34,687 nucleotides of DNA from Phycisphaerae bacterium (GTDB lineage: Bacteria; Planctomycetota; Phycisphaerae; UBA1845; PWPN01): contig JAAYDF010000253.1 of assembly GCA_012729395.1 (NCBI GenBank), positions 1-34,687 on the forward strand. The letters run 5' to 3'. Under the pieces are notes generated by a model that ran no database searches, was not told the origin of the DNA, and saw only the letters and a program-made list of their open reading frames with translations. Position numbers and translations under genes: made by a program. Shown here in pieces: positions 16,210-34,538 of the stretch; position 1 is the stretch's first letter, and the number at the start of each line of letters is the position of its first letter.

Positions 16210-19200
16210 TCATTGACTAACCTTTGCTGCTTGGTCTTTGTCGGCTGGCACGGGCTGCACCTTGCTCAGGCCGCGAGCGCCCGTGTCGTACAGAAACTCG
16301 GTGATCGCGGCGACCTGGCCGGTGGGGTCGTCCACCAGTCGAGGATCATGCAGTCGGGCACGAAGCCGCTCGCGATATTCGGGGGCAAATTCCGCGAAGG
16401 CGCTCGTTGTGCCGGTACCGAAATGGCTGGGCATCTTGGTGCCCGGCTGAATGCGGCCGGGTGCCTCCATCCAGGCTTGGACCCAAGGGCGGCGAAGCCG
16501 TCGGTGGGTGAGATCGAGGTTCTGGGCGGTCGGGTTGGTGATTGCCCCGGCGGCCCGCTCGTCTCCAAATACGTGACACGCGAGGCACTCCAACTCCATG
16601 AAGAGGATCTCGCCGTCGGCGACGCGCTGGGGCGATGACGACAAGGTGGGCGGGTCGTCCGTGAAGGGGTAGGCCACGGCCTGCAGGCGGCTGAGGAACT
16701 TGGCGTCGGCGAGGATCTCCGCATGTGCGGTCAGCAGTTCGTCGCGGTCGGCGTGTGCGGGGTCAATGCCGGCGGCAGGCACCAGACGGTTGCGGACGGC
16801 GTACCGACGAAGGGATTGCGTGGTCGCAGCCAGACGAGGCCGCTCGAACCATGCCGACACAGGTGGTGAGGCGATTGAGGATGAGTCGATTGGGTGGGGC
16901 GTCTCGTTGTGCTTGTGGACGGCGGCCAAGCGATCCGCGAGCCAGAGCGACTCCGCCTGAGCGAGGCCGGCAAAACAGGCGACGAGATCGGCGGTCTGGG
17001 GCGGCGTGAGGTTGAACTGCGGCATTCGGGTGTGCAGCCAGGGGCGGAGCGTGGTGACGTTGCGCAGATAGGCATAGTCCCAGTCGGGCCGCGTCTTGGC
17101 CCCTTGACCGCGGAGCGGCGGCGGGGCGTTTTCCTCATCGAAAACGCGTGTGGGGCCGAATACCACCTGGTAGTACTGATCGATCACCGCTTGGTTGCCG
17201 TCCAGGCGATGGCAGCCGACGCAGTTCAGCTCCCGCGCCAGCCGGCGACCTGCGGCCAGACGACCGGCAGGGGTATTGTCGTAGGCGATCCGGACCGGTG
17301 CGTCGACCAGGCTTTGCCGCCGAGAGAGCAGCCAGGTGGTTAACGCGCGGATCTGCCGGTTGCTCAAGAAGAAGTTGGGCATCTTGAGCTTGTCGTAGGG
17401 TTGTTTGTTCTGGCCGCGGTCCCAGATGCGGGGGTTGAGCAGTTTGTGGCGGGCGAAGGCATCGCGGCGATAGGCGATTTCCACGAGTCTGTTCTCACCG
17501 GCTCGCTCGATAAGTTCTTCACGGTGTCCCGGGTACAGGTGTTGCTGGTCAAGGTTCATTCGGCGACCGAGAGCGGATTGCGGATGGAAGATGCCGAAGT
17601 CGAGCCGATCGAGGGGGTTATCCGCCCAGTGGGTCAGCTCGGGGCCGGGCCGGGAGGCGGTTTCCATCCCGGGAATCCGATGGCAGGAGGCACAACCGTA
17701 ATGACGAATAGCCCGTTCGCCTAGAAGCACCCATCGCCTCTGATCCTCCGTGTGGGTCTCAGGGCGTGCAGGCAAAGCAGGTGATGCGAGCAGAACGCCA
17801 CCGGTGAGCGTGCGGTTCCCGCGATTGCCGGGATCGTGAAGAACCGCTTCCTGACGGGCGCGGCTCTGCTCGGCGCTCTCGGACATGAGCTTGTTCGCGT
17901 TGGTGCCCGGCATCCCATCATCATGTGCCACGGGTGGGAGGTTAAGGAGTTCGTCGCGTGTGGTTGCCAAACGGGCACGCTCAACTTCATCTTCATCGAA
18001 GTGTCGCCAAACGGTGGCGTCCGCGTCGCCCAGGGTCAGCAGGTATGCCGCGATGTCCAAGGCCTCGTCATGCGACGCGGCGGGGGGGCGCTGCCAGCGC
18101 ATGTCGGGCATGATAGTGTCCGGGGCGTAATGCCGAGGCTGGAGCAGCCAGTCATACAGCCATGCGACAGCTTGGGGGGAATCGCCGATCCGGCCGCGAA
18201 GGTTGGACAACTCCGGTGCCTGACGCGTGAAGACCGGTTCGCGAGCGGCCTCGGCGACGAACAGCCCCTCGCCGGCCTGGGGGAGATGCCGCAGGGCGTA
18301 CTCGGCTTGTTCGGTCGAGGTCATCGCCTCGGCCCGCGCGAACGCGTCATCCTCGATGCGGTCGAGGGCCTCATCGGTCAGTGCCTCGCGGCCTTGGGTG
18401 AGGACGAGTCTCGCCTCGGCCTGCGTGGCCAAATGATCGGCGATCCATGCGACCCCGAGTGTATCGGCAGGATTGCCGTCGGCGTCGTCCGGGCGATGGC
18501 TCAATGCGGCATGACAGCCCAGGCAACCCAGCGAGCCGAAGAGCTGGCGTCCTCGTTCGGCGCTGCCCGCAGAAGGATCAGTTGCCGGCAGGGGGGCTGG
18601 CGCATAGGTCGCACTGGCGGCCAGCAGGTACTCTGCGATGGCGACGACCTCTGCTCGCGTGCGTCCCTCGGGATCGGAGTCCCGCGCGGCGGTCACGGCC
18701 AAGGCGTCGTTGTTTTCCTGTCCAAAGGAGTGAGGCATGCGCGTCGCCGGCTGCACATCTCGCGGCCGCCAGAGCCAATGATGCAGGACGCCGCGACCCA
18801 GCTTGGCCGCCACATGCGTCAGATCCGTCCCCACGCGGCGGGCGTCGGCCGACTCTTCGACAAGGTGGCAGTTCACACAGCCGAGCGTGTCAGCCAGAAA
18901 CCGGCCTCTGTTGATGGCAGTGCCGATCGTTCGACCGTCGAAGGTCATGATGTCCGTCACCCGCTCGTGGCATTGGGTGCAGCCGGCTTCGGCGTATTCG
19001 CGAGGCAGCATGGGGCGATCCCAGCCCTCGCGGGCAGTCTCGAAGGTGTGCTCGGGGAATAGGCCGGCCAGTCGCACCTCGTGTCGCCGCGTCCACTCCC
19101 GCTTCTGGCTCCGGCTTGCTGGGGTGTGCCTGGCGAGGATGAAGTCCGTTTCCTCGCCGTGCCCCTCGTGGCAAACGGTGCATCCGGTGGCGGCCATCGG

Positions 19201-19680
19201 ATGTGGCGAATCTTTGCCAACCAAGAGATCGAGGTGCGGATGAGCAAGCAGGGGATGGTCGAGGTCGGGCGGGGAGTCCCCGCGAGCGGCAAGGTGATCG
19301 GTGTCGAAGGCCGGGTCGGCGATGGCCGCATGGCAGGTCATGCAGCGGTCGGTCCGTTGGCTGCGGACGAAGTGCAGGTTGTGGTGGATACCGGGCGGGC
19401 TGACCTGGAGGATCTCCTGGCGGCCGGGCGTACCGCGGGGGGCAAGAAAATCGATGAGGGGCAGGTTAAACCAGGCGGGTGTGGTTTCCGTCTTCTTGTT
19501 CGCGAGCAAGGCTCGTGTTTCATGATACTGCCGTTGCCACTCCCGCCACGGCCGCGCGTGATCGACCCAGACCCACCACAGGAGGCTGGCCAGCAGGGCA
19601 AGGCTCGCCAGGGCGAAGGCGAGACCGACCTTGCGCAGGCTGTAAACTTCATCCGGGCGGGGAGGCATCGCGCGGGGCAT
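16210..19680 (-). CDS. Membrane-anchored octahaem c-type cytochrome (two-part fusion)
   Basis: From ATG 19680 the product is 1156 residues. An N-terminal helix (about 18-40, VGLAFALASLALLASLLWWVWV) anchors it in the membrane with the rest periplasmic. Eight CxxCH haem sites begin at C113, C167, C234, C268, C386, C663, C820 and C1032. Met-Pro motifs at M315, M524, M767, M886 and M1083 are candidate axial ligands, as in class I cytochromes. Haems 1-5 form an N-terminal half and haems 6-8 a C-terminal half, joined by a linker (about 585-650). That linker contains SRARQEAVL, encoded by a dispersed REP-like repeat (17841-17876). The frame continues upstream to 19881, but that would overlap the divergent pyrC start. 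No strong Shine-Dalgarno is seen. The electron-transfer partner is unknown; no oxidase or reductase subunit is nearby. Confidence 0.88.
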   Translation of the reverse strand: MPRAMPPRPDEVYSLRKVGLAFALASLALLASLLWWVWVDHARPWREWQRQYHETRALLANKKTETTPAWFNLPLIDFLAPRGTPGRQEILQVSPPGIHHNLHFVRSQRTDRCMTCHAAIADPAFDTDHLAARGDSPPDLDHPLLAHPHLDLLVGKDSPHPMAATGCTVCHEGHGEETDFILARHTPASRSQKREWTRRHEVRLAGLFPEHTFETAREGWDRPMLPREYAEAGCTQCHERVTDIMTFDGRTIGTAINRGRFLADTLGCVNCHLVEESADARRVGTDLTHVAAKLGRGVLHHWLWRPRDVQPATRMPHSFGQENNDALAVTAARDSDPEGRTRAEVVAIAEYLLAASATYAPAPLPATDPSAGSAERGRQLFGSLGCLGCHAALSHRPDDADGNPADTLGVAWIADHLATQAEARLVLTQGREALTDEALDRIEDDAFARAEAMTSTEQAEYALRHLPQAGEGLFVAEAAREPVFTRQAPELSNLRGRIGDSPQAVAWLYDWLLQPRHYAPDTIMPDMRWQRPPAASHDEALDIAAYLLTLGDADATVWRHFDEDEVERARLATTRDELLNLPPVAHDDGMPGTNANKLMSESAEQSRARQEAVLHDPGNRGNRTLTGGVLLASPALPARPETHTEDQRRWVLLGERAIRHYGCASCHRIPGMETASRPGPELTHWADNPLDRLDFGIFHPQSALGRRMNLDQQHLYPGHREELIERAGENRLVEIAYRRDAFARHKLLNPRIWDRGQNKQPYDKLKMPNFFLSNRQIRALTTWLLSRRQSLVDAPVRIAYDNTPAGRLAAGRRLARELNCVGCHRLDGNQAVIDQYYQVVFGPTRVFDEENAPPPLRGQGAKTRPDWDYAYLRNVTTLRPWLHTRMPQFNLTPPQTADLVACFAGLAQAESLWLADRLAAVHKHNETPHPIDSSSIASPPVSAWFERPRLAATTQSLRRYAVRNRLVPAAGIDPAHADRDELLTAHAEILADAKFLSRLQAVAYPFTDDPPTLSSSPQRVADGEILFMELECLACHVFGDERAAGAITNPTAQNLDLTHRRLRRPWVQAWMEAPGRIQPGTKMPSHFGTGTTSAFAEFAPEYRERLRARLHDPRLVDDPTGQVAAITEFLYDTGARGLSKVQPVPADKDQAAKVSQ
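17841..17876 (+). repeat. REP-like repeat (ACCGCTTCC family) inside the cytochrome gene
   Basis: This 36-base segment matches 19711-19746 at 34 of 36 positions in the same orientation. It shares the ACCGCTTCC core and GCGGCTCTGC end with the inverted repeat at 26249-26315. Read on the minus strand it encodes about twelve cytochrome residues (roughly 602-613) without breaking the frame. Confidence 0.85.
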
Positions 19681-19710
19681 TATACCGCGGCAAGCCACGA
19701 AACCCAGAAG

Positions 19711-19746
19711 GACCGCTTCCTGACGGGCGCGGCTCTGCTTGGCGCC
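19711..19746 (+). repeat. REP-like repeat (ACCGCTTCC family) upstream of the cytochrome gene
   Basis: Second copy of the repeat at 17841-17876, same orientation, 1.87 kb away. It lies in the divergent gap between the cytochrome start (19680) and pyrC (19829). Read on the minus strand it would also encode QSRARQEAVL in the cytochrome frame, but no ATG is available to include it without overlapping pyrC. Confidence 0.85.
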
Positions 19747-19772
19747 CGTGGCGTTTCCCGTGTGTGTTCGGT

Positions 19773-19778
19773 TACAAT
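19773..19778 (+). promoter_or_regulatory. Possible -10 box for pyrC
   Basis: TACAAT lies 50 bases before the pyrC ATG in the divergent gap. No clear -35 hexamer is seen at the expected spacing. Confidence 0.3.
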
Positions 19779-19828
19779 CCTGCCACACTGACGGAGATCC
19801 AGAGACTATCACGAGGGACCAGGCACAG

Positions 19829-21133
19829 ATGTCAATACAGAAGATCCTCATCAAGGGCGGCCGAATCGTGGACCCTGCCAATGGGATGGACGCGGTAGGC
19901 GATCTCCTGCTGACGGGCGGTCACGTCACTCGGGTGGGGGGCGAGATCACGGATTACGACGCCCAGACCATCAACGCCGCGGGCTGTATCGTGAGTCCCG
20001 GCCTGATCGACATCCACGTGCACTTCCGCGAGCCGGGCGAGGAGAACGCGGAGACGATCGCCAGCGGGAGCGAGGCGGCGGTGGTGGGCGGGTTCAGCTC
20101 GGTTGCGTGCATGCCGAACACCCGGCCGGCTCTCGACGACGAGGCGGCTATCGAGTTTGTGCATCGGCAGGCGGCCCGGGCGAACCTGTGCAATGTGTAC
20201 CCCATCGGCGCGATCACCAAGGGCCGGGCGGGCGAGGAACTGGCGGAGATCGGCCAGATGGTGCGGGCGGGGGCGGTGGCTTTCTCGGACGACGGTTCGG
20301 GTGTGGCCAAGACGGGCGGGATGTACCGGGCCCTGCAGTATGTGCTCATGTTTGATCGCCCGATCATGCAGCACTGCGAAGATCCTGACCTTGCTCGCGG
20401 CGGAGTGATGAACGGCGGGGCGACGGCGACCCGGCTCGGTTTGCCTGGTATCAGCTCGATCGCTGAGGAATTGATGCTGCAGCGTGACCTGACCCTGGTC
20501 CGCGAGACGGGTGCCCGCTATCACATGTGCCACGTTTCCACTCGCCGGTCTGTGGAGCTGATCCGCCAGGCCAAAGCGGCGGGGCTGCGGGTGACGGCGG
20601 AAGTCTGCCCGCATCACCTGCTGCTGACCGAGGACGCCTGCGCGACGTACGACACCAACTTCAAGATGAACCCGCCGCTGCGGACTCGCGACGATGTGAA
20701 GGCCTGCCTGCAGGGCGTGGTGGACGGGACGATCGACTGCCTGGTGACCGACCATGCTCCGCACGGCATCCAGCAGAAGGAGCTCGAGTTCCTGGATGCT
20801 CCGTTCGGCATCATTGGGCTGGAGACCGCGTTGCCCTTGTACATCAAGGCTCTCATTCAACCGGGCTTGCTCGATTGGCCGGGGCTGATCGAACGGTTGA
20901 CGGTCAGGCCGGCCCGGGTGCTCTCGCTGAGCAAGGGCACGCTGTCGGTCGGTGCGGATGCTGACGTGACCATCATCGATCCCAAGGCGGAATGGACGAT
21001 CGACGCGGCCGCCTTCCGCTCCAAGAGCCGCAACTGCCCGTTCCACGGTTGGCAGGTTGTTGGCAGGGCTGCCGTGACCATCGTCGGTGGTCAGGTCAAG
21101 CACGAGTGCCGGGCGACGGCCGGTGTCGCGTAG
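19829..21133 (+). CDS. pyrC: Dihydroorotase, class I
   Basis: The 434-residue product catalyses ring closure of N-carbamoyl-aspartate to dihydroorotate, third step of pyrimidine synthesis. DIHVHFREPG gives the zinc ligands H63 and H65. Further family motifs are VAFSDDGSGV, MQHCEDP, CHVSTRRS and VTDHAPH, with D308 as catalytic Asp. FKMNPPLRT is the substrate-binding block. Length fits bacterial class I enzymes (about 420-450). ATG 19829 is chosen because the conserved protein begins at MSIQKILIKGGRIVDP and AGG lies six bases upstream. An upstream ATG at 19739 would add 30 unconserved residues reading through a repeat. No aspartate transcarbamylase gene is adjacent. Confidence 0.96.
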   Translation: MSIQKILIKGGRIVDPANGMDAVGDLLLTGGHVTRVGGEITDYDAQTINAAGCIVSPGLIDIHVHFREPGEENAETIASGSEAAVVGGFSSVACMPNTRPALDDEAAIEFVHRQAARANLCNVYPIGAITKGRAGEELAEIGQMVRAGAVAFSDDGSGVAKTGGMYRALQYVLMFDRPIMQHCEDPDLARGGVMNGGATATRLGLPGISSIAEELMLQRDLTLVRETGARYHMCHVSTRRSVELIRQAKAAGLRVTAEVCPHHLLLTEDACATYDTNFKMNPPLRTRDDVKACLQGVVDGTIDCLVTDHAPHGIQQKELEFLDAPFGIIGLETALPLYIKALIQPGLLDWPGLIERLTVRPARVLSLSKGTLSVGADADVTIIDPKAEWTIDAAAFRSKSRNCPFHGWQVVGRAAVTIVGGQVKHECRATAGVA

Positions 21134-26366: not shown

Positions 26367-27521
26367 ATGAACTACTCTCCAGATCCTTATCCCTTGCCGC
26401 CAACGCCTCGACAATCGGCGCCGTCACGGCGCTTCTCGTGGTTGGTTGTTCTTCTCGCGCTGCTGGTGGCGTTTTCTGTCTATCGTCAGTTCACCGATTT
26501 CTGGCGAACCGGCTCAGGTGAGCCGCGAGCGATCACGCCGCGCGGCGACCTTGCCGATGCGGAGAAGACCACCATCGAAGTGTTCCAGCAAACGGCTCCA
26601 TCCGTGGTGTACATCACCAGCGTGGCCTTACGCCGCGACCGCTTCGGGCTCGACATCTCCGAGATCCCACAGGGCACCGGCTCGGGCTTCGTGTGGGACG
26701 ACGGCGGGCATGTGGTGACCAACTTCCATGTCGTGCAGGCCGCCCTCGAAAAACGCGACGCCATCCGCGTCACGCTCAATGATCGCTCAACCTACGATGC
26801 CGAGGTGGTGGGGGTCTCGCCGGACCAGGACTTGGCCGTGCTGCGTATCCGTGCGCCTTCGGTTCGGCTTAGACCTATCCCGTTGGGAACCTCGGCCGAT
26901 CTGCAGGTCGGCCAGCAGGTCTACGCTATCGGCAACCCCTTCGGGCTCGACTACACGCTGACCACCGGCATCGTCAGCGCCCTGGGGCGTACCATCCAAT
27001 CCGTCACGCGGCGACGAATCGAGGACGTGATCCAGACCGACGCGGCCATCAACCCCGGAAACTCAGGCGGGCCACTGCTGGATAGTGCCGGCCGGCTGAT
27101 CGGTGTCAACACGGCAATCTACAGCCCGTCGGGTTCCAGTGCTGGCATCGGCTTCGCCGTACCCGTCGATACTGTTGTTCGTGTCGTGCCCCAGGTCATC
27201 ACGCACGGCCGCGTGATTCGCCCCAGGCTCGGCGTGTACCCTGCCCCTGACAGCATCGCACGCCGGATGAACATTCAGGGCGTGCTGGTCCGCGAGGTCG
27301 AGGAGGGCTCAGGCGCAGAGCAAGCCGGCCTGCGAGGAGTACGCCAGATGCCCGACGGCACCATCCTGCTCGGCGACATCATCCTGCAGATCGATGGCCA
27401 ACCTATCCGAGATACAGACGCGCTGCTCAACACCCTCGAGAAGCGCAAGGTCGACGATGTCGTCGAAGTCACGATCCTTCGCGACGACCAGACGCAGACC
27501 GTCAAGATCCGCCTGCGGTAG
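26367..27521 (+). CDS. HtrA/Deg-type serine protease (S1C) with one PDZ domain
   Basis: The 384-residue product has a short cytoplasmic tail, one transmembrane anchor (about 27-44, FSWLVVLLALLVAFSVYRQF), a trypsin-like domain and a C-terminal PDZ domain (about 300-384). The catalytic triad is visible: H121 in TNFHVV, D155 in DQDLAVLRI and S233 in GNSGGPLLD. GIGFAVPVDTV is also characteristic. A single anchor and single PDZ give a DegS-like layout, consistent with envelope quality control or stress sensing. Short loops agree with the DegS/HtrA group. It is convergent with the metzincin-like gene, 52 bp apart. No RseA-like partner is seen. Confidence 0.95.
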   Translation: MNYSPDPYPLPPTPRQSAPSRRFSWLVVLLALLVAFSVYRQFTDFWRTGSGEPRAITPRGDLADAEKTTIEVFQQTAPSVVYITSVALRRDRFGLDISEIPQGTGSGFVWDDGGHVVTNFHVVQAALEKRDAIRVTLNDRSTYDAEVVGVSPDQDLAVLRIRAPSVRLRPIPLGTSADLQVGQQVYAIGNPFGLDYTLTTGIVSALGRTIQSVTRRRIEDVIQTDAAINPGNSGGPLLDSAGRLIGVNTAIYSPSGSSAGIGFAVPVDTVVRVVPQVITHGRVIRPRLGVYPAPDSIARRMNIQGVLVREVEEGSGAEQAGLRGVRQMPDGTILLGDIILQIDGQPIRDTDALLNTLEKRKVDDVVEVTILRDDQTQTVKIRLR

Positions 27522-27573: not shown

Positions 27574-30500
27574 TCAACCCTCATGGAACGAGGGGCATGC
27601 CCCCGACGCCGTTTGGTTCAGGCTGTTGCGTATATGCACCAAGTCAAAGATGTTGATGTTGCCATCGGTATTCACGTCTGCCTCAAACGTGCTCGCATCC
27701 ACGCTCTGGTTGAGCCGATTTCTGGTGAGAACCAGATCGAAGATATTGACCGTGCCATCGCGGTTGGCGTCGCCGGCCAGAACCTTGAAGCAGACGAAAT
27801 CTGTCACTACCGCCGCGGGGTTATAGGCGTCCGAGATGCCCGGGAACTGGATGCTGAAGACCTGGGCATTCTGCACTCCTGACAGCTCGATCTCCAAAGC
27901 CTGATTGCCGGGCCGCATGGTCACGTTGGAGACGGTCCCGTTGGAGGTGAGCACGGAATCGACGGACAGTCCCTCGGCGGCCTGAATGGCCTTGTCGAAC
28001 TCGACGATGAGCAGTATGGGGCCATCGGCTCGCGGCTCCACCCCGCTGGGTTCACTCACGTCCAGGTCGAACGAGCCTGCGGTGCTGTGAGTTCGCCGGG
28101 AAATCGCATTGGTCACCACCGGAGGCGCGGTGCCTCGCCAGCCGACGTCTTCAGTACTCCAGCCGCTGGCTCCCAGCCCGGTGTCGTCGGTGGCCGCCTT
28201 GACCCAGTAGTAGTAGTACACGGTCTGCTGGGCGGTTTCGTCGTCGATCTGGAGATCGGTGATCCAGTCGGTGATCGGCTCGCTGCCCGCCACGACGTTG
28301 TAGTTGTAGCGATAGACGCGGTAGTGGGTGGCGTCGGGTACGGCATCCCACCGCACGTTCACGAATCCGAGATAGGTGCCCTTGCTGGCCATGACGTTGG
28401 CCGGTGCGGAGACCACGCGGTAACCGGTGTCCGGGCCCGCGGCGGCGGTGGGATGAGCACCGTCGCCCGCCGCGGAGACCACCCAGTAGTAGTAGGTCGT
28501 CCCCGGCTCGGCAGTGGTGTCGTCAAAGTTGCGAGGCCAGATCCAGTCGCTGATCGGCGAGGCGAGGTTGAAGTCCGAGGTCAACCCGCGCAGCACTCGG
28601 CAAGCGGCGTAGCTTGACGATTGGCTCCAGGTGATTCGGACACGGTTGCTGTAGGTGCCGTCGGTGGCGACGACGTTGGTGGCCGCGGGCAGGGCCCGCC
28701 AGCCGCTGTCCGACGGGCTGAAGGGTGACGCGCAGAAACCGAACTGGTCGCCGGCACCCTTGATCCAGTAGTAGTAGTTCTTGCCCGGATCGGCGTAGAT
28801 GTCATCGTAGCTGGTGGCCGTCGTCCAGGTGCCCTGGGCGGAAGCCGTGTCGGGATCGTCCACCGTGTTGCGGTAGAGCCGGTACTGCGTGGCTCCGGGC
28901 AGGGAACTCCAGGTGACGGTGATCTGGGTCTGCGAGCTGCCGTCGCTGGCGACCGGGGCGGAAGGTGTCCCCAGTGAGCGAAATCCCGCCGCGGGCAGGG
29001 AACTGAGATCCGAGGGGCGCGAGCCTGCCGAGGTGGTTGCGCTCTGCAGCCAGTAGTAATACGAGGTGCAGGTGTTATCCGGCGTGTCCTCGTAGCTGGT
29101 CTCGCTGATCCAGTCGGTCAGCGGGGTGGCGTCAAGTACGTTGCTCGTTTCGGCCCGGTGAACGCGGTAGTAACTGGCCCCGGCCGCCGCGTTCCAACTG
29201 ACCACAATCTTGTCGGGATAGGTGCCACCGGTAGCCATGAGGCCGTCAGGCGGGCTGAGTTTGCGCCAGCCACTGTTGGAGCTACTGAACGCGCTGGCTC
29301 TTTCGCCCTGGTCATTGACGGCGGCCTTGACCCAGTAATACATGGTCAGCCCGGGTGAGACGGTCGTGTCGTTGAAGCTGGTTGCCGAGATCCAGCCGGT
29401 GATGGGGCCGGAAAGCGCGGAGATGTTCGCCTGACTGCGGTAAACGCGGTAATGCGTGGCTTCGCTGACTGCGCTCCAGGCAATCCTCGTGTACCCGGTA
29501 TACGCGCCGTCGCTGGCGCTGACCCCGGTCGGCGCCGATACCGGTGCCGCCGGCCGATAGCCGGTGTCCGGCATACTGTACACGCTGGCGTTGTTACCAG
29601 AGCTGCTCGTGCCGACTTTCACCCAGTAGTAGTAGGGCGCGCCTTGAGCGGCCGTGGTGTCGTCGTAGGTGGTCGCGGTCTGCCAGGTGCCCAGGGCGGT
29701 CGCGGCACCGGGATCAGCAGAAACACCCCTGAACACGCGATAGTACTTGTTGCCGCTGTAATCCGGCCCGGTCCAGGTGACCCGGACATAGCCGGCATAG
29801 GTGCCGTCGGAGGCGTCGACACCGGTCGGTGCGGGCAGAGCCTGCTGGCCGATGCCGCACCACTCCAGCACCAGGCTGGAGGCGTTTGTGCCGGTCGAGC
29901 TGACCGCCGCCTTGACCCAGTAGAAGTACTGAGTCAACGGCTCGGTGACGAACAGGTCGTCGAAGCTTAGTCCCGTCTGCCAGCCGGAGATCGCGGTCGC
30001 CCCGGTCAGGCTGTAGGTGGTGTTGCGGTACACCTGGTAGTGCGACGCGACCCCGCCCGCGGCCGGCCAGGTCACCCGAATGCGATCGTTGAACGTGCGA
30101 TCCGAAGCGGTCACCACAGGCGGCGTCAGTGCGCGATAACCGGCGTTGCTGCTGCTGAAACCGCTTTGCGTCTGGCATTCTCGAATGGCTTTGATCCAGT
30201 AGTAGTAGGTCTTGCCTGCCAACGCCGAATTGTCATAGTACGTGGTCGTGACGATCGGCACGTCGAGGGCCATGGCATTGGCCGAGTTGTTCGTGTCCGC
30301 CCGGTACACCTGGTAGGCCCAGGCTCCCGACACGGCGTTCCAGGTCACCTGCACGTTGGTGGTGCTGGTGCCGTCGCTGGCGGCGACGCCCGTCGGAGCG
30401 GAGATGCTCGGGCAGGTCACCGAGATCGGCAGATACACCGAGGTGGTGTTGTTGGGCAGGTAGTCATCCCACGACGAATTGTCGTTGTCTCCAGTGATCC

Positions 30501-32322
30501 GCAGCGTGATGTAGTAGGTGTCGTACGCGACCGTTGCGGCCGGGATGGTCGTGGTCAAATCAAGTACCGCGTATTGCTCGGCGGGAACGGAAGCAAATTG
30601 CCACACCGTCGGGCATTCCCAGGTTGTGCCGTTGCGCTCGGAGGATAGATACATCCGCACCTTGACGTTCGGCGAAGCATATCGCGACATGTTCTCGATC
30701 GTGACATTCTGGACCGTGATGGTCTCGCCGGGTACATAGCTCCCGCCGGTCTGGGCGTTCCAGTTCCACTTGTTGGTGGTGGCGTGTTTCAGACCATCCT
30801 GGGCGTAGTATGACTCGATGCCCAGGTCGTTGACCGTCTGGATGCTGGTCTGGCCGTCGTAGATCGCACGCAGCTTCTTGACGTCGCTGACGTGCAGGCC
30901 GAAGCCGTCCTCGACGATATCGTGATACGCGCCGTGCATGATGGTGGGCTCGTCGTAGTCGTAGGTCTCGTTGCCGCGTTGCAGGCCCCAGGTGTGCCCC
31001 AACTCATGTATGGCGACGGGCAGGTAAATGTACCTGTCGTAGTGGCCCAGGGTGACGGACAGATCGGGATGCCAGACCAGGCCATACTTATACATTACGT
31101 CGGCTTCCAGGATCTCGCCGCACTGGCTGAAGAAAAAAGAACTGCACATCCCGATGGCCGTGCCCCAGCCGGAGTCATAGGCGCTCTTCCTCTGCTTCTC
31201 GGTGACGAAGCCGCAGATCTCGCTGTACCAGTTGTGCCCGAAGCTGCCGTCGTCGTCGCGCTGACGGAAGATGTCCATGAACGTGTTGGTGGCCTGCATC
31301 GCGTGGATGTCCAGCGGATACATCCAGAAGCTCGGCGACACGCACTCCATCACTTGAAACAGATCGACATAGCCGCATCTGTGCAGACTACCACCTTCGA
31401 CGGCACGGCCCTCCTTGATGGCGGTGGCCAAGTCGGTAATGCCTTTGGCGGCCGCGAGAGCGGCCAAGCTCTGCTCCGTCAGTCCCTCCGGACCGAGCTG
31501 CCAGGCCGCAGATTGTCCCAGCTTGCCCATCGGCTCGTTGGGATCCTGGGCGGCTTCGTTGGCTGCCAGAATCGCCGGCAGTACCGGCCTGGCGGGCGGC
31601 GGGCCCGTCAATGCCTGCTTCACCAGTCCCAGAAAACCGTCCAAGGTCACAATCGGTTGCGAGGAAGCTTCCACCACCTTGCGCACCGCGGGCTGGGGAG
31701 CGTCCGGCGAGGTCCACGGCTCCGGGATGGGATCGCCGGTGTCCATCGCCCGCGGAGCAAACACCGCCTGGCCGGCCTCGATACGCTCGACAACCGGCGT
31801 GCACTTCAGCCGACCCTGGCTTAGCCCGGTAACTCCCTTGCGGCTGGCAGTCAGTACATACTCCTGACTCCCATCAGCATCCGCGACGACGCGAAACAGC
31901 CCCTGGTTCCCCCCGATGAGCGGTGTCGCATGAACTTGGCCGTTCATGAGCGTGAACAGCAGGTACTTCCCGCCTACCTCAAAATCCGGGGCGTCGCTCA
32001 CCATCATGAAGATGTTGCCCAACTGTCCACCTTCGTGGGTCAGGGTGAACGGGGCGGCTAAGTCGCCCTCCACCCCTGCCCGTTTGTGGACCGGCGTCAC
32101 CGGGTCGAAGACGACATCAGTCAAAATGGTGTTGCCATTCGGGCCGGGCCTGCATGCCATCTGCTGAACCGTCCCAACGAAGATAGCGTCCGAAGCCTGG
32201 GCCAGCTCGTCGAACCCCAGGCGAGGCTGCAGAGCGTAGGCTGGTAATGGTCCAAGAAGCGCCGCAAGGCAGGTCATGGCGCACAGAACCCCTATCCCCT
32301 CCGCGCGGTTGTACGTTAACAT
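27574..32322 (-). CDS. Giant secreted metzincin-like protein with CARDB, eight FN3 domains and dockerin
   Basis: From ATG 32322 the product is 1582 residues. The start is set by AGAGGAAG six bases upstream and by the signal peptide (MLTYNRAEGIGVLCAMTCLAALL..., about 1-30). A conserved N-terminal region (about 30-150) and linker precede a protease-like domain with AIHELGHTWGLQRGN (H439, E440, H443) and a Met-turn-like PTIMHG (M462). The third metzincin ligand is R449 instead of His. A CARDB-like domain (about 525-635) comes next, then eight FN3 units of about 94 residues (about 640-1395) with recurring YYYWVKAA and GWR. A beta domain follows, then a dockerin pair: GDANRDGTVNIFDLV (about 1514) and ADVNTDGNINIFDLV. 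Probably surface-exposed; proteolytic activity is uncertain. The frame is also open upstream to 32535, without a ribosome site. Confidence 0.88.
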   Translation of the reverse strand: MLTYNRAEGIGVLCAMTCLAALLGPLPAYALQPRLGFDELAQASDAIFVGTVQQMACRPGPNGNTILTDVVFDPVTPVHKRAGVEGDLAAPFTLTHEGGQLGNIFMMVSDAPDFEVGGKYLLFTLMNGQVHATPLIGGNQGLFRVVADADGSQEYVLTASRKGVTGLSQGRLKCTPVVERIEAGQAVFAPRAMDTGDPIPEPWTSPDAPQPAVRKVVEASSQPIVTLDGFLGLVKQALTGPPPARPVLPAILAANEAAQDPNEPMGKLGQSAAWQLGPEGLTEQSLAALAAAKGITDLATAIKEGRAVEGGSLHRCGYVDLFQVMECVSPSFWMYPLDIHAMQATNTFMDIFRQRDDDGSFGHNWYSEICGFVTEKQRKSAYDSGWGTAIGMCSSFFFSQCGEILEADVMYKYGLVWHPDLSVTLGHYDRYIYLPVAIHELGHTWGLQRGNETYDYDEPTIMHGAYHDIVEDGFGLHVSDVKKLRAIYDGQTSIQTVNDLGIESYYAQDGLKHATTNKWNWNAQTGGSYVPGETITVQNVTIENMSRYASPNVKVRMYLSSERNGTTWECPTVWQFASVPAEQYAVLDLTTTIPAATVAYDTYYITLRITGDNDNSSWDDYLPNNTTSVYLPISVTCPSISAPTGVAASDGTSTTNVQVTWNAVSGAWAYQVYRADTNNSANAMALDVPIVTTTYYDNSALAGKTYYYWIKAIRECQTQSGFSSSNAGYRALTPPVVTASDRTFNDRIRVTWPAAGGVASHYQVYRNTTYSLTGATAISGWQTGLSFDDLFVTEPLTQYFYWVKAAVSSTGTNASSLVLEWCGIGQQALPAPTGVDASDGTYAGYVRVTWTGPDYSGNKYYRVFRGVSADPGAATALGTWQTATTYDDTTAAQGAPYYYWVKVGTSSSGNNASVYSMPDTGYRPAAPVSAPTGVSASDGAYTGYTRIAWSAVSEATHYRVYRSQANISALSGPITGWISATSFNDTTVSPGLTMYYWVKAAVNDQGERASAFSSSNSGWRKLSPPDGLMATGGTYPDKIVVSWNAAAGASYYRVHRAETSNVLDATPLTDWISETSYEDTPDNTCTSYYYWLQSATTSAGSRPSDLSSLPAAGFRSLGTPSAPVASDGSSQTQITVTWSSLPGATQYRLYRNTVDDPDTASAQGTWTTATSYDDIYADPGKNYYYWIKGAGDQFGFCASPFSPSDSGWRALPAATNVVATDGTYSNRVRITWSQSSSYAACRVLRGLTSDFNLASPISDWIWPRNFDDTTAEPGTTYYYWVVSAAGDGAHPTAAAGPDTGYRVVSAPANVMASKGTYLGFVNVRWDAVPDATHYRVYRYNYNVVAGSEPITDWITDLQIDDETAQQTVYYYYWVKAATDDTGLGASGWSTEDVGWRGTAPPVVTNAISRRTHSTAGSFDLDVSEPSGVEPRADGPILLIVEFDKAIQAAEGLSVDSVLTSNGTVSNVTMRPGNQALEIELSGVQNAQVFSIQFPGISDAYNPAAVVTDFVCFKVLAGDANRDGTVNIFDLVLTRNRLNQSVDASTFEADVNTDGNINIFDLVHIRNSLNQTASGACPSFHEG
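28125..30405 (-). repeat. Array of eight FN3-coding repeats
   Basis: Eight units of about 280 bp encode FN3 domains. Each contains a YYYW-type stretch, so CCAGTAGTAGTAG recurs on the plus strand (for example near 28206, 28482, 28768 and 30196). Units are diverged elsewhere, so the array is not recent. Confidence 0.85.
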
Positions 32323-32328
32323 GTTACG

Positions 32329-32336
32329 CTTCCTCT
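32329..32336 (-). promoter_or_regulatory. Shine-Dalgarno fixing the start at 32322
   Basis: AGAGGAAG on the minus strand lies six bases before the ATG. It selects the signal-peptide start over the upstream open frame. Confidence 0.7.
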
Positions 32337-32410
32337 TGCGATGCCCTCCGGCACCGTGTGGTTGGAAATGGCTTCGACCCAGCCGCCACAGACAAGGCCA
32401 CCTTATTCCC

Positions 32411-32416
32411 ATTATA
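32411..32416 (-). promoter_or_regulatory. Possible -10 box for the metzincin-like gene
   Basis: TATAAT on the minus strand, about 90 bases upstream of the ATG. The hexamer 17 bases further up is GGTGCA, a poor -35. Confidence 0.35.
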
Positions 32417-32691
32417 CATCTCCATTTGCGCAATGCACCTGTCTTTATTAAGATTTGGCACGACAGCGAGGAGCCCCCCCGCCCCATCTTGGACCTATAT
32501 TCCGCAACTATGTGAAAAATCAATATGAACTGCAATTGCGGTTCGTTGCGATGCCGGTTGTCGATCCCGACAATCTGAAATGCCGTTGCAGCTTCGTGCG
32601 ACGCAGGGAGTACCGGAGGAAAAATACTGAAAGGCGGTTCCTCGGCTCGCGGTGAATGGGTTCGCCTGGGCCTTGTCGGTACGGCCCCTCA
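32417..32691. other. Intergenic stretch upstream of the metzincin-like gene
   Basis: This is the rest of a 369-bp gap (32323-32691). It is AT-richer than the genes. Near 32527-32544 is an 18-bp near-palindrome, GAACTGCAA/TTGCGGTTC, with one mismatch, that could be an operator. No coding frame is convincing. Confidence 0.4.
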
Positions 32692-33029: not shown

Positions 33030-33069
33030 CGATCGTCCATCCTTTCGTCATACCGCGGGAGAATACGCC

Positions 33070-34053
33070 ATGCACAGCGGAATCTTGCGAACTGCCCATC
33101 CGAGAGTTCCCAGCAGGTTGGTCTTGGTCGCCGCCCTCGCCCTCGGGACCGTTGGCAGGGGCTTGCTGTTGGCCATGGGCGAGGAAGGTCGCGAACCGGA
33201 GCAGCCGGCCGCCGAGTCCGCGCCCACCGGTGCCGAAGACTCCTCCGACGATAGGCTGCCCGACACGCTCGATCCCGACTTGGCGACGCACGCGGTGGAA
33301 CTGGTCACCGTCGGCTTCGACATGCTCAGCCAGTCGCCGATCGTGCTCCTGCGGGAGCCGCTTCACGGCAAGGTCGTGCCCATCTGGGTGGGCATCGCCG
33401 AGGCCCAAGCCATCTCGCGGGCGCTGTACGGGGTCGTTCCGCCGCGACCCATGACTCACGACCTGATGGCGTCGCTGCTTCGCGAGCTGGACGCGGACTT
33501 GGTCGAGGTGGTGGTCAACGACATGCGCGAGCACACCTACTTTGGCAAGCTGAAGCTGCGGGTCGGCAAGGACAAGGCCCTGCGGATCGTGGACACCCGG
33601 CCGTCGGACGGCCTGGCCCTGGCGCTGCGTACCGGGGCGACAATTCACATCGCGGATAAGATCCTTGACGCCACACCCGAGTTCGGCTTCGTGCCGCCGG
33701 ATGAGGAGCAGCAGGTGGTGCGGGCCTTGGGGCTCACCGTGGTCAAGCCCACGCCCGAGCATGTTGAAGAGTTCGACCTGCCCCGACGGGCCGGCGTGCT
33801 GGTGCTCGCGGCGCGCGATGAAGCCGTGGACGCAGGGCTGCGCCGCGGCGACCTGATCATCGAGCTCAACGGCCAAGTGCCCGCGACGCCGATCGCCTTT
33901 TTCGAGGCCGTGCGTGCAACCCGCCCCGGCGGCGAAGTCCGCCTCCGCTATCTTCGTGATGGAAACGAGCATACCGCCACCCTCCGCGTCCGTGAACAAC
34001 CCCGTCGCCCCGAACGCCCCGACCCCCTACGTCCCGGCCGCGTGCGACTGTAA
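33070..34053 (+). CDS. Bifunctional nuclease (BFN/DUF151) domain fused to a PDZ domain, exported
   Basis: The 327-residue product has a hydrophobic N-terminal segment (about 16-36, RLVLVAALALGTVGRGLLLAMG), probably a signal or anchor, and an acidic linker (about 38-70). A BFN domain follows (about 73-210): VELVTVGFDM, PIVLLRE, LPIWVGIAEAQAI-type sequence (here VPIWVGIAEAQAI), THDLMASLLRELDADLVEVVVNDM, YFGKL and VDTRPSDGLALALRTG. A PDZ domain (about 235-315, AGVLVLAARDEAVDAGLRRGDLIIELNG) completes it. BFN proteins are small and usually cytoplasmic, with reported RNase/DNase activity in plant homologues. Here a PDZ domain and an export signal suggest envelope localisation. GGGAGA precedes the ATG. 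A GGTGTCAGGA repeat motif starts four bases after the stop. Confidence 0.85.
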   Translation: MHSGILRTAHPRVPSRLVLVAALALGTVGRGLLLAMGEEGREPEQPAAESAPTGAEDSSDDRLPDTLDPDLATHAVELVTVGFDMLSQSPIVLLREPLHGKVVPIWVGIAEAQAISRALYGVVPPRPMTHDLMASLLRELDADLVEVVVNDMREHTYFGKLKLRVGKDKALRIVDTRPSDGLALALRTGATIHIADKILDATPEFGFVPPDEEQQVVRALGLTVVKPTPEHVEEFDLPRRAGVLVLAARDEAVDAGLRRGDLIIELNGQVPATPIAFFEAVRATRPGGEVRLRYLRDGNEHTATLRVREQPRRPERPDPLRPGRVRL

Positions 34054-34103: not shown

Positions 34104-34538
34104 CTAGTCGAACACCTTGCAGACCGCGTTGCTCAGCAGGGCTTCGAGAACCTCGGCGAGGGCCGCTTCCGTTCCCCGGACCCAGCCCGGCTCGGCCTGC
34201 ACATCCAGGACGAACTCGATGCTCTCTCGTCGGGCTTCTTCCTCGTACTGCAGTCCCGCTCGGCGAGCCAGACCTGCCAGGTTCGCCGTCGCCTCACGCA
34301 TGATGTCGGATTCGCTTGCCTGGGCGATGGCCAGCATTCGCTGTACGGACTCCAGTGCTTGGTCGCACGGGGCGATGGCTTTGCACACCAACTCCCGCTG
34401 CGCATGGTTGAGGGGGTCCGCGAACTCGCCCAGCAGCGTCTTGAGCAACATGGCGGCGGTGGCCACCGGCCCCTTGAGTTGGTGGGCGGCGAGCGAGGCG
34501 AACTTGGGACTGTCGGATTCCGGCCCGAGCTCGGTCAT
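34104..34538 (-). pseudogene. Truncated sensor histidine kinase (HisKA region only)
   Basis: The 144-residue product begins near the H-box: FASLAAHQLKGPVATAAML, with phospho-acceptor H19 in the HQLKGP context. It continues through the dimerisation helices and reaches the N-box, EVLEALLSNAV (N137). It stops seven residues later (CKVFD), where kinases normally continue with K-Y-x-P and the G-boxes. No catalytic ATPase remainder is found in any frame before the neighbouring gene ends at 34053. No sensor domain lies upstream either; the start region is repeat DNA and has a weak ribosome site. It is most likely a gene remnant, though a stand-alone HisKA protein is not excluded. Confidence 0.65.

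Follow-up and report, generated by a model that had tools for sequence, protein, structure and literature searches.

A recurrent fusion of a BFN/DUF151 domain with a PDZ domain, probably exported, in a Phycisphaerae bacterium and several other phyla

What could a domain of the BFN/DUF151 family do outside the cytoplasm? The question is raised by a gene near the right end of the window, by which we mean the whole analysed stretch of 34,687 nucleotides from a Phycisphaerae bacterium. Published work on BFN/DUF151, in the portions considered here, concerns members that are not described as exported. A conserved branch that is exported and carries a peptide-binding domain of envelope type would narrow the possible functions of the family. 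The initial annotation had read this gene as such a fusion, with the PDZ domain placed C-terminally in the same protein as BFN, and this reading holds: its coordinates are exact and both Pfam domains score over their cut-offs. The gene, which we call bfn-pdz, is an open reading frame of 327 amino acids (protein P0001) that starts with an ATG at 33070 and whose stop codon ends at 34053. The features of the locus discussed below are the following.

26367..27521, forward strand: HtrA protease with its own PDZ, probably an incidental neighbour (Pfam; NCBIfam)
33057..33061, forward strand: GGGAG, resembling a ribosome-binding site upstream of the ATG (by eye)
33070..34053, forward strand: bfn-pdz gene (P0001), open reading frame with Pfam BFN_dom and PDZ_2
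33070..33177, forward strand: predicted signal peptide or membrane anchor, residues 1-36 (hydropathy and charge), with a counterpart in 31/31 BFN-PDZ proteins
33178..33297, forward strand: acidic linker, residues 37-76, with 12 D/E versus 2 K/R in 40 residues
33298..33672, forward strand: BFN/DUF151 domain, residues 77-201 (PF02577, TM0160 matches, model fold)
33454..33459, forward strand: T129-H130, putative active site, equivalent to TM0160 Thr57-His58 by alignment
33607..33609, forward strand: D180 of RPSD, equivalent to TM0160 Asp115 by alignment, in 31/31 BFN-PDZ proteins
33712..34008, forward strand: HtrA-type PDZ domain, residues 215-313 (PDZ part of TIGR02037, PDZ_2, model fold)
33724..33735, forward strand: A219-L-G-L222, which we take to be where the carboxylate-binding loop of the PDZ lies, G221 being present in 31/31
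34104..34538, reverse strand: remnant of a histidine-kinase/CoA-disulfide-reductase-type/rhodanese gene (reductase and rhodanese named by eye)

The BFN assignment is carried by hmmscan against Pfam, in which BFN_dom (PF02577) covers residues 92-201 with an E-value of 4.3e-32 (110.7 bits against a cut-off of 27), and by sequence alignment with TM0160 (1sj5 and 1vjl, E 2e-21 and 6e-21). PDZ_2 covers residues 221-306 with an E-value of 3.6e-7 and 30.8 bits, slightly above its curated cut-off of 27. The HtrA/DegP model of NCBIfam, TIGR02037, aligns by its PDZ part only to residues 215-313 (E 5e-11), below the cut-off of the model as a whole. Pfam gave no match in P0001 to a trypsin-like protease domain, to the T2SSC domain of GspC (PF11356) or to a UVR motif. 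At the N-terminus, the hydropathy rule finds a peak 13-residue hydropathy of 2.44 and a preceding net charge of +3, which fits the signal or anchor proposed by the annotation, and, judged by eye, AMG/EEG might be cut by a signal peptidase. The acidic linker, also proposed there, is borne out by its composition.

The predicted structure agrees with both assignments. An AlphaFold2 monomer model of residues 70-316, built from 27 aligned sequences, reached a mean pLDDT of 92.3 and a pTM of 0.77. Among the Foldseek candidates, TM0160 superposes on model residues 3-135 (Z 20.5, rmsd 1.7, 132 aligned), and model residues 142-241 match the PDZs of MamP (Z 15.3), DegQ (14.4) and DegP (14.2). The PDZs of HtrA, DegP, DegS and AlgW, together with MamP, give Z values of 12-15 against the model PDZ.

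The initial annotation called for a survey of BFN domain architectures, and this brought out what it had missed, namely that BFN-PDZ recurs in several phyla. A scan of genome contigs seeded with P0001 alone found nothing. A second contig scan, seeded with P0001 and an exported BFN of the window's phylum, found full-length relatives, by which uniqueness of the fusion was ruled out. Seven of the best 80 loci taken from it hold BFN and PDZ in one frame: Natronospira (L102), Thioalkalivibrio (L103), Wenzhouxiangella (L104), Calescibacterium (L105), Syntrophaceae (L107), Nitrospinota (L108) and an uncultured organism (L136). A Thiotrichales locus (L106) is BFN-PDZ-like and cut by the contig end. 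Pfam PDZ models are below cut-off in the Thioalkalivibrio protein and absent in that of Wenzhouxiangella, whose PDZ was assigned not by Pfam but from its alignment and its similarity to the PDZ of P0001. Both Natronospira and Wenzhouxiangella belong to the Gammaproteobacteria; all the named gammaproteobacterial matches (L102, L103, L104 and L106) are MAGs. Their isolate codes presumably denote soda-lake sediment samples, and the family may favour haloalkaliphiles.

In the class of Natronospira, matches at 1e-12 occur in 11 of 369 sampled genomes (8 full-length BFN-PDZ, 1 cut by a contig end and 2 BFN only). Of the 23 genomes in the class to which the 'Syntrophaceae' MAG belongs, 18 have a full-length BFN-PDZ, nearly always beside BFN-only paralogues, and the gene is thus conserved in this class. 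The phylum search around the Nitrospinota genome comprised that genome alone. For the window's own phylum, the Planctomycetota, searches covered 13, 397, 392 and 114 genomes, the first three amounting to 751 distinct genomes with the window's own included, and those of 397 and 392 genomes scoring the best five or fewer candidates per genome. Across the 751 genomes the window's protein is the sole full-length alignment among the matches listed, although fusions of greater divergence may exist, and within its order BFN-PDZ is found in 1 of 114 genomes. Matches in plasmid records, six in all, are confined to the BFN part. In G751, G752, G753 and G755, four gammaproteobacterial genomes that were scanned completely, BFN-PDZ is the only BFN match, and these genomes offer simple systems for study. 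The 31 BFN-PDZ proteins collected come from Gammaproteobacteria, the class of the 'Syntrophaceae' MAG, Nitrospinota, Calescibacterium and the window's organism. Since the same domain order is kept in 30 further proteins, P0001 is a fusion and not the product of a frameshift or a chance join.

Is the export segment equally general? Export was called by a rule of hydropathy and charge, with a threshold of our choosing and start codons free to vary in all sets. An export-like N-terminal segment was found in 15/15 BFN-PDZ proteins and then, with a near-identical rule, in 16/16 more. Among the 80 BFN frames of the best-80-loci scan 9 pass the rule, including all seven BFN-PDZ; the two that pass among the other 73 are the cut Thiotrichales frame and a frame that looks spurious (L124). 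In the window's phylum 3 of 83 BFN frames pass, and only that of G507 (L054/L083) is convincing. This protein (L083:1441-2028) resembles P0001 in having a signal-like segment, an acidic spacer and BFN, but it has a charged tail instead of a PDZ and represents a second type of exported BFN. By eye, gammaproteobacterial BFN-PDZ proteins have an A-x-A-like site at the end of the segment, while in the 'Syntrophaceae' class the segment resembles an uncleaved anchor. The view of the annotation that exported BFNs are the exception is thus supported by the sequences, as BFN-only frames almost never pass the rule and 31/31 BFN-PDZ proteins do. These results suggest that the BFN/DUF151 family, thought to be intracellular, has a cell-envelope branch.

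The conserved residues bear on what such a branch might do. The putative triad of TM0160 consists of Asp115 and His58 of one subunit and Thr57 of the other, according to the portion of PMC7249048 used here. In our alignment T129, H130 and D180 are identical in 31/31 BFN-PDZ proteins, and G221, the glycine of the PDZ loop, is invariant in the same 31/31, so that, by sequence, both the putative active site and the loop glycine are intact. That glycine and the DegP/DegS/AlgW-like predicted fold make it plausible that the PDZ of P0001 binds protein C-termini. As for the BFN domain, DNase and RNase activity has been reported for Arabidopsis BBD1/2, and according to the same paper it is unknown what DUF151 does at the molecular level (PMC7249048); in the passages considered, no bacterial BFN is shown to be a nuclease.

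The distribution raises the question of how the gene reached the window's organism. In a 93-row tree of BFN domains, the window protein and ten gammaproteobacterial copies form a clade of 11 (100/100), in which the window protein is nested with L203, L204 and L210 (subclade 96/94). The organism's own small BFN (L001) groups with its phylum in that tree. A 31-row tree of full-length proteins recovers the same 11 as a clade (100/100) and places the window protein as sister to the other ten (89/95); a constraint holding it with L203, L204 and L210 changed the likelihood by +4.9 units, with a p-AU of 0.72. According to this placement, the window's bfn-pdz was probably acquired horizontally from the gammaproteobacterial branch, donor and direction being tentative. 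The contig is assigned to this genome because the DNA ligase it encodes shares 68-76% identity with the ligases of the 11 other genomes of the host's family that have one. The GC fraction is 0.681 in the gene and 0.643 in the window, and its codon usage is like that of its neighbours.

A possible trace of the acquisition lies on the right. The remnant on the reverse strand, truncated and with an internal deletion, lies about 50 bp downstream of the bfn-pdz stop. Its intact relatives are fusions of about 830 amino acids (open frames of 809-928 in G001, G002, G005, G008 and G009), of which it keeps residues 41-167 and then a short piece equivalent to about 607-614, where it stops. The rest of the window showed no convincing further parts of this kinase-reductase fusion. 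It is plausible that the remnant is a scar at the right edge of the acquired DNA; the alternative is an assembly join. We observed besides that the intact fusions (L241-L245, from G008, G009, G005, G001 and G002, respectively) join a histidine kinase core, a CoA-disulfide-reductase-like part and a rhodanese in one frame, a combination that looks unusual, the last two parts being named by eye.

Does the neighbourhood point to a partner? An HtrA with a PDZ does lie nearby, as the initial annotation noted, ending 5.5 kb upstream of bfn-pdz. A meaningful link between the two was not upheld, given that the two are separated by a gene of 5 kb that runs the other way, that HtrA occurs at 0 of 30 other loci and that PDZ_2 has 24 matches genome-wide. 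In stretches of 3.9 to 16 kb around the bfn-pdz genes, the 354 proteins predicted at 31 loci (L240 and the 30 with BFN-PDZ) include no HtrA protease, and the sole match to the protease queries spans 47 residues (E 0.005) of a 150-aa protein. With 16 other PDZ frames spread over 5.74 Mb, the number expected within 6.3 kb on either side is about 0.035. A functional pair with HtrA was therefore rejected as unconserved. Two other reverse-strand genes of the window may be mentioned. The open reading frame at 27574-32535 encodes 1653 amino acids with a C-terminal dockerin, a matrixin-like stretch below cut-off and, by eye, repeats resembling fibronectin-type modules. That at 16210-19881 encodes a 1223-aa multihaem protein with stretches like cytochrome c3/c7, MtrC/F and class I cytochrome c.

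Some neighbours do recur within lineages. In two of ten gammaproteobacterial loci (G751 and G1046, Natronospira and one relative) bfn-pdz is preceded by gspC-gspD-gspE-gspF, GspC and GspF being identified by Pfam and gspD and gspE by eye and synteny. A gene resembling phage Mu GemA (PF06252) adjoins bfn-pdz in 11 of the 19 'Syntrophaceae'-class loci examined, 18 of which have full-length BFN-PDZ. It lies directly upstream in L107, L136, L225, L231, L233 and L236, and in the last five of these the two genes, as called, share 4 nt; translational coupling is likely. Neither gsp genes nor a GemA-like gene were found at the loci of the other BFN-PDZ lineages. A conserved operon was rejected, as no neighbour is kept across the gammaproteobacterial, 'Syntrophaceae'-class and other loci. 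This argues for a self-contained BFN-PDZ protein that would recognise tails of wide occurrence and not a single partner from its operon.

We tentatively favour, as a possible reading, an exported BFN dimer with two PDZs, in which BFN catalysis is tethered or gated by envelope proteins through their C-terminal tails. The signal peptide or uncleaved anchor would take BFN-PDZ out of the cytoplasm, and the acidic linker would space it from the membrane or the cleavage site. The BFN domain would form a homodimer like that of TM0160, with the Thr-His...Asp pocket spanning the dimer interface, and one HtrA-type PDZ per subunit would make the protein a bivalent binder of C-termini. Envelope-protein tails on the PDZ could then tether or gate a phosphodiesterase or nuclease activity of BFN at the site. 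BFN dimers are known for TM0160 and Rv1829, and the tails of misfolded outer-membrane proteins act as the switch of the proteases DegS and AlgW. For P0001 we infer the dimerisation, the catalysis, the PDZ ligand and the gating, and the ligand is a guess because no partner gene is conserved across lineages. It would be tempting to go further and see here an envelope family, old, mobile and so far undescribed, whose PDZ, by binding exposed C-termini, makes periplasmic processing of nucleic acids or nucleotides by BFN depend on the state of envelope proteins; by analogy this can be argued, and we hold it unlikely.

The main rival to the exported, tail-gated dimer is that BFN serves as a protein-interaction module and BFN-PDZ as an adaptor of envelope proteolysis, delivering clients to periplasmic PDZ proteases or shielding them. 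By analogy, UVR-DUF151 proteins are enriched in a plastid CLPC1 trap (excerpts of PMC8889267) and a BFN protein belongs to the ClpC1 interactome of M. smegmatis (excerpts of PMC10433963), and the PDZ of P0001 is of the HtrA type. However, no HtrA protease is encoded at the 30 other BFN-PDZ loci and the putative catalytic residues are invariant in 31/31 proteins, and we regard the adaptor as somewhat unlikely. BFN-PDZ could instead be an envelope protein for small-molecule, redox or CO stress, with the PDZ merely localising it, in the manner of Rv1829 (Cor), a BFN-only protein said in the portion of PMC7249048 used to confer CO resistance. This is an analogy with a single case, conserved redox neighbours are lacking, and we find it quite improbable.

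Where bfn-pdz follows gspC-gspD-gspE-gspF (G751 and G1046), it could also be a type II secretion accessory that, like the PDZ protein GspC, works together with the secretin platform. But this arrangement is confined to 2/10 gammaproteobacterial loci, it is seen neither at the other loci nor in the window, and GspC itself is already present at the gsp loci, which makes such a role very improbable. The position of the window's gene, near the right end of the contig and beside a truncated gene, would suit an assembly artefact or a foreign gene in decay. Against this stand its intact 327-codon frame, its conserved residues and neighbour-like codon usage, the contig's ligase with its 68-76% identity in 11 host-family genomes, and the host-family relatives of the flanking kinase remnant as well; we consider artefact or decay highly unlikely. 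The exported dimer with two PDZs thus remains our preferred, tentative reading.

How does P0001 compare with known systems? TM0160 of Thermotoga maritima (PDB 1vjl/1sj5) shares the BFN fold and the conserved Thr57/His58/Asp115, but consists of the BFN domain alone, without export segment or PDZ. The plant BBD proteins (OmBBD and AtBBD1/2, with the order HCR-DUF151-UVR) also share the BFN domain, have DNase/RNase activity in vitro according to the portion of PMC7249048 used, and carry HCR and UVR in place of PDZ. The small BFN of the same genome (G000:C78, a 151-aa frame) is about 39% identical to P0001 in this domain, yet lacks export segment and PDZ and clusters in the tree with other BFNs from its phylum. 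A UVR-like tail in some Planctomycetota BFNs was considered and rejected, as Pfam gives Val_tRNA-synt_C there, above cut-off in 2/3. These proteins (L063:1557-2159, forward; L064:1249-1848 and L065:1230-1826, reverse) join BFN to a C-terminal coiled coil that matches the tRNA-binding arm of valyl-tRNA synthetase (PF10458, over cut-off in two of the three), a fusion that possibly binds nucleic acids. In the literature, the portion of PMC7249048 used depicts 48 DUF151 proteins and describes the domain either by itself or joined to UVR/HCR, and in the main text of a survey of 7,852 microbial PDZ proteins (PMC6411480), as far as covered, nuclease, DNase, DUF151 and BFN are absent. Among the papers listed by full-text searches of the open literature we found none that describes BFN-PDZ, and a database listing may exist. 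The PDZ of P0001, finally, shares its fold with the envelope PDZs of HtrA, DegP, DegS, AlgW and MamP, but P0001 differs from the HtrA/DegP proteases in that only their PDZ parts match and it has no trypsin-like protease domain. In summary, BFN and PDZ domains are themselves known, and it is their union in a recurrent, horizontally scattered and predictedly exported architecture that the papers searched do not describe.
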